Origin: Gammaproteobacteria bacterium
GTDB lineage: Bacteria > Pseudomonadota > Gammaproteobacteria > GCA-001735895
DNA length: 64,000 bases
Direction of reading: 5' to 3'
Assembly: GCA_024225395.1 (NCBI GenBank)
Contig: JAAEMR010000010.1
Coordinates: 62,001-126,000 of the forward strand
The notes beneath the pieces are model-generated. The model ran no database searches. It was not told the DNA's origin and saw nothing but the letters and a program-made list of their open reading frames with translations. This document shows positions 59,722 to 62,259 of this stretch, piece after piece (position 1 is the stretch's first letter; the number at the start of each line of letters is the position of its first letter). The position numbers and the translations under genes were made by a program.

Positions 59722-62259
59722 TTACATTGTTTCGCAGTTTGAAGGTAAGTAATTTTTAACTAAATTACTGCTGCATATCCATCGTAAATTGTAGGCATTT
59801 TCTGAACTGGGTAATGTAGGAGATAATTTTAACGATTTATCCTCCCCAAACATGTCGGTTAACTCAATTAAAATGCTGCCATCGTACTCAATGCTGATGT
59901 CTGATACAGTTTTACTACCGCTGTAGTCGGATAAACCTATTTCACTAAGGCTTTCTGGCCACTTTCCATAACTATGATAATACTCTGTAACCATCATTTT
60001 GATGGGTGTTATTTCAACAAAAGTTTGCCCGAGATGAGCCTTTAAAATGTAAGGGTTAGCGGTGCTTTTTGTATCTTCTTTGTTATCTGTTGATGACGAA
60101 AAAAGTTTAGAAAAGAAACTCTCCTCCACCTTCTCCTGTAACATTATTTCATCAATAAAACGTGGGTCAGCGAAAAGCACAGATGTTGCATTCTCTATAG
60201 CCTGACCCATTATTATTTTCGGCTTGGCATTTAATAGCCAGCTATCTGAAATACCTTGAGACAGTTTTTCATATAAAATCTGCTGATTTGAATTACCGAT
60301 CAACTGCCATTTTATTTTTATGCTAACGCGATGTCTTTTAAACGAATTAGTGGATATTTTTCTTTTTCCGCCAAATTCAAAGTCTGACTTTATTGCAGGA
60401 GCACAGGAGTCAAACCGGAGTGCCATAATTTCACTGTGCAAGCTATAAGCACCTGTCTTTCTCTTGTTTTTTAACAGATTGTATTGATCCGAACGTTTGT
60501 GCCTGTAATCCAGACTTTTTAGAATTTTGGAAGCGCTGCCCGCTAACTCCGCGGCTGTAGGATAAAAAGCCGGGTATTCATTTAATGCTTCGGGCCAGCT
60601 TTTTGACTTGATCGTAGAGCAGTTTTCTCCAACAGCATAATAACCCCGGTGTTTAGCTGCTGGTAAATCATTCCAGGTTGTGTTGTTTGTTACTAATAAA
60701 ATCTGTTTTACTTCGCCCTTTTCGGGCCGGGCTATAGCTGAACCGGGTTTTAGTTTATTCAAAGGAAACGAATTCATCGCTTCCGTTTTTCTGGTTTTTT
60801 TAGATATTTTTTTGATGAAATGAGCATCAGATAGCAGCTGCCTGGAGGCATTTGTGATTGCTTTTTGCATCACCGCTGAACCTTTTGAATCAACCAGCAG
60901 GCTTCCCGCGATACCTTCTGTTCTGGTCTGGTACAGTAAAACGCGGTTTCGATCAGTTTTTAGCGACCACTTAACGGTAATCTTCAGCTGTTTTCGACTT
61001 AGCTTGTTCTTCTTAATGTCATTCAGGGTCTTATATTTTGCTGTCGCTGACAGTGACGGAGCACAGATGTTGTAATTTATGCCGACTACCTCGGCGAATA
61101 ATGTATAGCCATCACTGTTTTCTATTTCGGATAGTGCATTTTCAGTATTTCTCTGTATCGAATAACCAGCAGACGAAATAGCTTTAACTACACTACCTGT
61201 GGATTCTGCATTGTTAGCAAAAAACCATTTTTGATTATTTACCGCATCTAGTAATTTCATTGGCTTGTTGGCGGAACACTTTTCACCAAACAGGAACATA
61301 CCCACCGTATCTTCGTTTCCCAACCGTCGTGTCCAAACATTTTCATCAACCGTTAAAAACAGTCGATGAGGTTCAGTTTTTCCTGAAAATTTTATTGGCT
61401 GAGCATTAGTTGATTTATGTGTGACTATGCCTCCGTTATCTTCCTCTACCATAACTTTATGGATAAATTTTTTATCGGAATACAACTTTAAAGTAGCCGA
61501 TTCAACGGCATTGGCTAAGGCTATCGATGGGGGATTTTCACTCTGCCAGCCACTAAAGCTACCGTCGGTGGTTTTTTCATAGATCACATCCTGATCTCGA
61601 TTAGATTTTAGTTGCCAGTGAACTTTTAATTTAATGCGATGTTTTTTAAATTGATAGGCTGATATGTTGTTAACCGGTTTGAGACGGTCTCTTTTTGAAA
61701 TATGTGGCGCACAGGTATTAAAACTTAAACTGATAATTTCTGAGTGAAGACTTAATCCACCTGAATGCTTTAATTTCCTCAATAAATCATATTTTGATGA
61801 ACGATCTGACTCATAGTCCAGGCTGTTAATCACTTTCATCATTCGGCGGCTAAGTTCTGACTCCCTGGGGAAAAAGTCCTTGTGATTAATGTAAACATCG
61901 GGGACTTTCATTGCGCCTCTTGATGAACAACCTTTCCCTGCATAGTAAGCGCCAATTTTTTTATTTTTACTGGATGCAGATTGTTTTTTCCAGCTGTAAC
62001 GAGTGTCCAGTAAAAATACTTTCCGGGCAGTCTGGTCATAAGGTTTTAATATCGCCTTACTGGCACTTTGCTCGACAACAACTTGAGTAACCGACTTTGT
62101 TAGCGGAACCAGTTTTGTTTTAGACTTATCCGTTGGTTGTTTATCCGAATAATGGACTTTCCCATTTTTATCCACCCATTTAAAAAGTTCGGCTGGTGAG
62201 CTGGTTATAGTTAAATTTAGAGCCAGGAACAGTATTAAGCTTAAGTAATTTGTTTTCAT
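59722..62259 (-). CDS. 845-residue secreted protein: DUF4124, three repeat modules, pilin-like C-terminus
   Basis: A signal peptide (residues 1-23) is followed by a DUF4124 domain (about 22-55, LFKWVDKNGKVHYSDKQP). Three related modules of about 190 residues follow at 79-270, 298-485 and 518-706. Each begins with a strand such as VFLLDTRYSW, RLFLTVDENVW or QILLVTNNTTW, and contains two cysteines at matched places (Cys111/183, Cys328/399, Cys547/619). The second cysteine sits in FNTCAP, YNICAP or FDSCAP. Each module ends FIHKVM, FIKKI or FIDEIM. Module 2 is most diverged. The last 100 residues (744-845) resemble the globular end of a type IV pilin: TEYYHSYGKWPES...SDISIEYDGSILIEL...LSPTL...WICSSN...YLPSNC, with a Cys829-Cys842 loop. 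No hydrophobic pilin helix is present. Single gene, function unknown. Confidence 0.85.
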   Translation of the reverse strand: MKTNYLSLILFLALNLTITSSPAELFKWVDKNGKVHYSDKQPTDKSKTKLVPLTKSVTQVVVEQSASKAILKPYDQTARKVFLLDTRYSWKKQSASSKNKKIGAYYAGKGCSSRGAMKVPDVYINHKDFFPRESELSRRMMKVINSLDYESDRSSKYDLLRKLKHSGGLSLHSEIISLSFNTCAPHISKRDRLKPVNNISAYQFKKHRIKLKVHWQLKSNRDQDVIYEKTTDGSFSGWQSENPPSIALANAVESATLKLYSDKKFIHKVMVEEDNGGIVTHKSTNAQPIKFSGKTEPHRLFLTVDENVWTRRLGNEDTVGMFLFGEKCSANKPMKLLDAVNNQKWFFANNAESTGSVVKAISSAGYSIQRNTENALSEIENSDGYTLFAEVVGINYNICAPSLSATAKYKTLNDIKKNKLSRKQLKITVKWSLKTDRNRVLLYQTRTEGIAGSLLVDSKGSAVMQKAITNASRQLLSDAHFIKKISKKTRKTEAMNSFPLNKLKPGSAIARPEKGEVKQILLVTNNTTWNDLPAAKHRGYYAVGENCSTIKSKSWPEALNEYPAFYPTAAELAGSASKILKSLDYRHKRSDQYNLLKNKRKTGAYSLHSEIMALRFDSCAPAIKSDFEFGGKRKISTNSFKRHRVSIKIKWQLIGNSNQQILYEKLSQGISDSWLLNAKPKIIMGQAIENATSVLFADPRFIDEIMLQEKVEESFFSKLFSSSTDNKEDTKSTANPYILKAHLGQTFVEITPIKMMVTEYYHSYGKWPESLSEIGLSDYSGSKTVSDISIEYDGSILIELTDMFGEDKSLKLSPTLPSSENAYNLRWICSSNLVKNYLPSNCETM

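Follow-up and report, generated by a model that had tools for sequence, protein, structure and literature searches.

The window analysed here (the whole stretch of 64,000 nucleotides) comes from a marine-type gammaproteobacterium and contains, on the reverse strand, an uninterrupted reading frame with an ATG start that encodes a protein of 845 residues, in the company of HemW, RdgB, Rph and a YicC-like gene (assigned by inspection) as well as a GGDEF protein. The gene and its parts, read from the N-terminus, are as follows.

59722..62259 (-), whole gene, DUF4124 followed by three modules and a pilin head, 845 aa, with full-length matches at 41-46% identity in six relatives
62191..62259 (-), Sec-type signal peptide, residues 1-23, with the cleavage site read by eye after ...SSPA
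62083..62202 (-), DUF4124 (PF13511), residues 20-59, Pfam E 2.4e-7
61435..62037 (-), module M1, residues 75-275, C111/C183, pI 9.8
60781..61377 (-), module M2, residues 295-493, C328/C399, pI 9.7
60124..60717 (-), module M3, residues 515-712, C547/C619, pI 9.5, modelled at pLDDT 89.6
59968..60054 (-), helix 736-764, which corresponds to the C-terminal half of pilin α1, from AlphaFold2 secondary structure, hydropathy and alignment to PilE 27-124
59734..60039 (-), pilin globular head (PF00114), residues 741-842, C829/C842, pI 4.7, from Pfam (E 3.9e-10), PDB pilins and a structural match to 4v1j (TMt 0.61)

An artefactual reading frame or a chance repeat is ruled out by the shuffle test, the homologues and the dN/dS ratios given below, and a plasmid origin was rejected as no plasmid match was obtained. 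Promoter and terminator scans returned sites no more numerous than in shuffled sequence.

The hydrophobic peak of the protein (Kyte-Doolittle) lies at residues 5-26, the homologues have signal peptide cleavage sites of the AxA type, and inspection of the signal peptide reveals no lipobox cysteine. No second transmembrane segment is apparent, the best 19-residue Kyte-Doolittle window past residue 30 reaching 1.07, there is no prepilin (GFTLIE-type) motif, and no membrane or cell-wall anchor was detected. DUF4124, a broad family, scores 31.3 bits against a gathering score of 22. All cysteines noted in the protein (111, 183, 328, 399, 547, 619, 829 and 842) fall into the pairs listed above, and the conserved pair of each module probably forms a disulfide. 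M3 is followed by a linker and then the acidic head; every three-module homologue has basic M1 and M2 and an acidic head, and in most of them M3 is less basic. The earlier note had described an exported protein with DUF4124 at its front, three repeated modules with cysteine pairs at exactly these positions, and a disulfide-looped C-terminal head of pilin type lacking the pilin helix; the Sec-type signal peptide, the Pfam matches above cut-off, the module comparison and the lack of a membrane helix bear this description out.

The three modules, of about 200 residues each, are homologous to one another, at 28-34% identity and with BLAST E values of 1e-29 to 1e-44 between pairs, and with module-versus-module Smith-Waterman scores of 238-336 against shuffles of mean 32-34, standard deviation about 5 and maximum 53, placing them at least some 39 standard deviations above. 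They have no significant match in Pfam, NCBIfam or PDB sequence profiles; the best superfamily profile match is LptE, at E 0.031 and in three of 21 modules, and a search of the organism's own genome with the LptE profile gave nothing at E 0.001. Weak matches to SWI-SNF_Ssr4_N, cIII, adenylosuccinate lyase and ribosomal eS8 were dismissed as chance. The AlphaFold2 model of M3 (pTM 0.86, built on an alignment of 21 rows) retrieved 36 PDB entries below 0.001 in Foldseek (best E 6.5e-6), with HpaA as the top fold match, and those listed are, besides HpaA, FlgT, CsgG, DUF330, PelC, LptE and related proteins of Helicobacter. With modest TM-scores (0.3-0.57) and a large rmsd, the match holds at superfamily level. 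The predicted topology of a helix, three long strands and a C-terminal helix resembles that of many members of the CsgG/FlgT/PelC/LptE/HpaA/DUF330 superfamily, and on the evidence of this model the module is a member of the CsgG/FlgT/LptE/PelC/HpaA structural superfamily; it is distinct from these proteins in having no significant sequence match, no lipobox and three tandem copies. The comparison of the module with known domains that the earlier note had suggested therefore comes out differently at two levels, no sequence family being found whereas the predicted structure has a known fold. HpaA, FlgT, CsgG, PelC, DUF330 and LptE all belong to the envelope and several form rings, those of CsgG, PelC and FlgT lying at the outer membrane or the basal body; to this group the modelled module would add a new sequence family. 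The full-length AlphaFold2 model is weaker (mean pLDDT 71.9, pTM 0.33), such that the domain arrangement cannot be read from it; in structural searches it also retrieves FlgT, HpaA and, as listed above, the meningococcal pilin 4v1j.

The head (41.1 bits against the PF00114 cut-off of 22) is matched at sequence level by pilins in the PDB and aligns with PilE from residue 27 onward. Core pilin features are retained, namely the WP motif, the W...N pattern and the C-terminal cysteine pair. With the type IVa pilins (N. meningitidis PilE, 4v1j; P. aeruginosa pilin, 1hpw) the head shares α1-C, the β-sheet and the C-terminal disulfide loop, but it has neither the prepilin peptidase site (class III signal) nor the hydrophobic α1-N of these proteins, and it ends a long Sec-exported protein. 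Hydropathy indicates that helix 736-764 is amphipathic and not a membrane helix. Pilin heads are normally carried on a membrane helix that builds the filament, and without α1-N this head is predicted to be incapable of joining the filament core. In a tree of 39 pilin heads, the rows of which were chosen by similarity to the head of the 845-residue protein and are to that extent biased, every DUF4124-linked head lies on a single branch (94/79), together with the membrane-anchored head of L127 and apart from both true pilins and other tethered pilin domains; the head is also distant from the PilA of its own genome. L127 (1462-2124, reverse strand) has no DUF4124; its pilin head, of the same lineage, follows an unrelated membrane segment at the N-terminus. 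The loop cysteines C829 and C842 are kept in the aligned homologues except L007, from Olavius algarvensis Gamma 3 (G021), the sole such three-module homologue, in which the first is replaced by arginine and the loop is unpaired. The PilQ match of the same genome is in two pieces, one with an internal TAG.

Three-module relatives of about 850 residues are present in six genomes of the same family, one of them the Olavius algarvensis Gamma 3 endosymbiont. One-module relatives were found in two genomes from the same genus, where the start codons chosen give lengths of 444 and 432 aa, and in one uncultured Cellvibrionales (409 aa), and at least four proteins (from G007, G133, G253 and G375) join DUF4124 to the pilin head with no module at all. 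Pfam confirms DUF4124 and Pilin in the one-module proteins and in those of G133 and G253; the G007 protein falls slightly under the pilin cut-off (19.5 against 22), and for G375 Pfam gave DUF4124 alone at the limit used, the head being found with a custom profile. DUF4124 and the helix-less head thus stay joined across several families with three, one or no modules, although the gene is absent from some close relatives (G001, G004). Three pairs gave dN/dS of 0.10 to 0.13, and the architecture is held by purifying selection. In the module tree M2 forms one group (98/96) and M3 another (93/94) across genomes, which indicates that the triplication is older than the sampled family members, and the M1 modules cluster with those of the one-module proteins from the same genus, the module of which is thus of M1 type. 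The position of the Cellvibrionales module is unsure owing to long branches.

The earlier note had raised the possibility that homologues sit near pil genes, and this was not borne out: no pil gene lies beside the gene or its homologues in any neighbourhood examined. The homologues are flanked by unrelated housekeeping genes (BioB, ComF and thioredoxin; HDOD-EAL and Maf; an ABC transporter and an ATP synthase subunit; RecN; DUF3095; a Na/H antiporter; ChaN), and neighbourhood linkage to pil genes was accordingly rejected as support. Nor is co-occurrence with PilQ informative, as a PilQ-profile match is present in all 45 genomes searched, relatives included. The organism's own genome does encode PilQ and a typical true PilA, which makes the pilus a plausible target, but with no homologue examined lying beside pil genes the link to pili rests on the pilin domain itself and on TfpC. 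By analogy, TfpC (NGO0783, N. gonorrhoeae) is the nearest functional precedent. Like the 845-residue protein it is an exported DUF4124 protein; it is periplasmic and is required to keep gonococcal pili extended (PMC7593972). Its authors point out that most DUF4124 members have not been shown to act in pili and that the number of true orthologues is not known (PMC7593972). TfpC differs in its size of about 150 residues, its membrane helix and coiled coil, and its lack of both modules and pilin head; of its layout, DUF4124 followed by a proline-rich linker and a C-terminal coiled coil, our protein shares DUF4124 alone.

Tentatively, and with somewhat less than even confidence, we view the protein as a soluble accessory that serves the type IV pilus machine from the periplasm, in which the modules and DUF4124 would act as envelope scaffold and the head as a mimic that recognises a partner. 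What is observed is which domains the protein has, that they are conserved, that the module model matches a known fold and that the heads share one branch; location, partner and effect we infer. Sec would export the protein and the signal peptide would be removed; fold and charge suggest that DUF4124 and the basic modules could then hold it in place within the envelope, where it would probably form an oligomer or abut the secretin, the peptidoglycan or the outer membrane. There the head may present, or imitate, a pilin surface towards pilus machinery whose usual partners are pilins, and so stabilise or gate the pilus or occupy pilin-binding sites. The suggestion of the earlier note that the protein may dock on, or imitate, a pilus subunit is likewise conjectural. 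The more specific proposal of an undescribed family of pilus accessories, each a helix-less pilin mimic on a ring-type periplasmic scaffold of CsgG/FlgT-like fold (with no, one or three modules) that stabilises or gates the pilus at the outer membrane, is possible but rather doubtful.

The first two parts of the protein are not pilus-specific, as elsewhere the same pair carries a trypsin-like protease. A class-wide search for the module gave one partial match, a DUF4124-module-Trypsin_2 protein, and exported proteins of this kind (L155:814-2229, reverse strand, L192, L193 and L194) occur in several genera. They share with the 845-residue protein its first two domains and the cysteine pair, but have one module and the protease in place of the pilin head, and the profiles of protease-linked and pilin-linked modules align at 99.1% probability in hhalign (E 9.6e-19). 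Of the further copies, found in relatives, L195 has a degenerate protease part in which the active-site motifs are, by eye, seemingly lost. DUF4124 and the module might then be a general periplasmic targeting unit, an envelope platform for varied effectors such as a protease or a pilin head, with the head a generic binder that does not act on pili. We consider this rather unlikely, since the zero-module proteins keep DUF4124 and the head without any module, which argues against the head having been attached to the module at random.

Somewhat less probable again is a surface or secreted adhesin, in which HpaA-like modules and the head would serve to bind ligands of the host or matrix and the pilus machine would not be involved. 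HpaA, the top fold match, is a Helicobacter adhesin lipoprotein, NCBIfam gives a weak match to the leptospiral adhesin Lsa20 (E 0.0054, far below cut-off), and one relative is the Olavius endosymbiont; however the HpaA fold is common to non-adhesin machine parts, the lipobox and the membrane or cell-wall anchor sought in the protein were not found, and the other relatives are metagenome bins not known as host-associated. An exported head that titrates pilus-binding agents, e.g. phages or pilin-modifying enzymes, would be expected to look like this one, a non-polymerising pilin head in a genome that also has a true pilin, but such a decoy is very improbable given that the protein is conserved, with dN/dS about 0.1 instead of rapid diversification, and that its head stands far from the resident PilA.

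The architecture of DUF4124, modules and pilin head was not found described in Pfam, NCBIfam or the literature searched on DUF4124 and pilins, in agreement with the earlier note, which knew of no family with this domain order. The parts are known, but their combination and the lineage appear new, and the relatives with three, one or no modules suggest a family of periplasmic helpers related to the pilus that has not been described before. If this pilus-accessory reading holds, conserved, exported, helix-less pilin heads joined to folds that occur in the rings of flagella and secretion systems would be a sign of a further layer in the pilus machine, and such a lineage makes it testable whether DUF4124 proteins in general serve pili, as TfpC does in the gonococcus.

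Pilin domains were also seen in other settings. A second class outside pilus subunits is formed by L131, L142, L148 and L151, frames of about 730-750 residues that encode large proteins ending in a pilin domain whose hydrophobic helix, of VAVVGILAAIAIPAYNDY type, is retained well away from the N-terminus. In L146, L178 and L165 the domain is tethered, outside the normal pilin context, behind apparent membrane segments of DUF805/TM2 type, and L138 (1360-3183, forward strand) encodes an ankyrin-like repeat protein with a pilin-type domain near its N-terminus.
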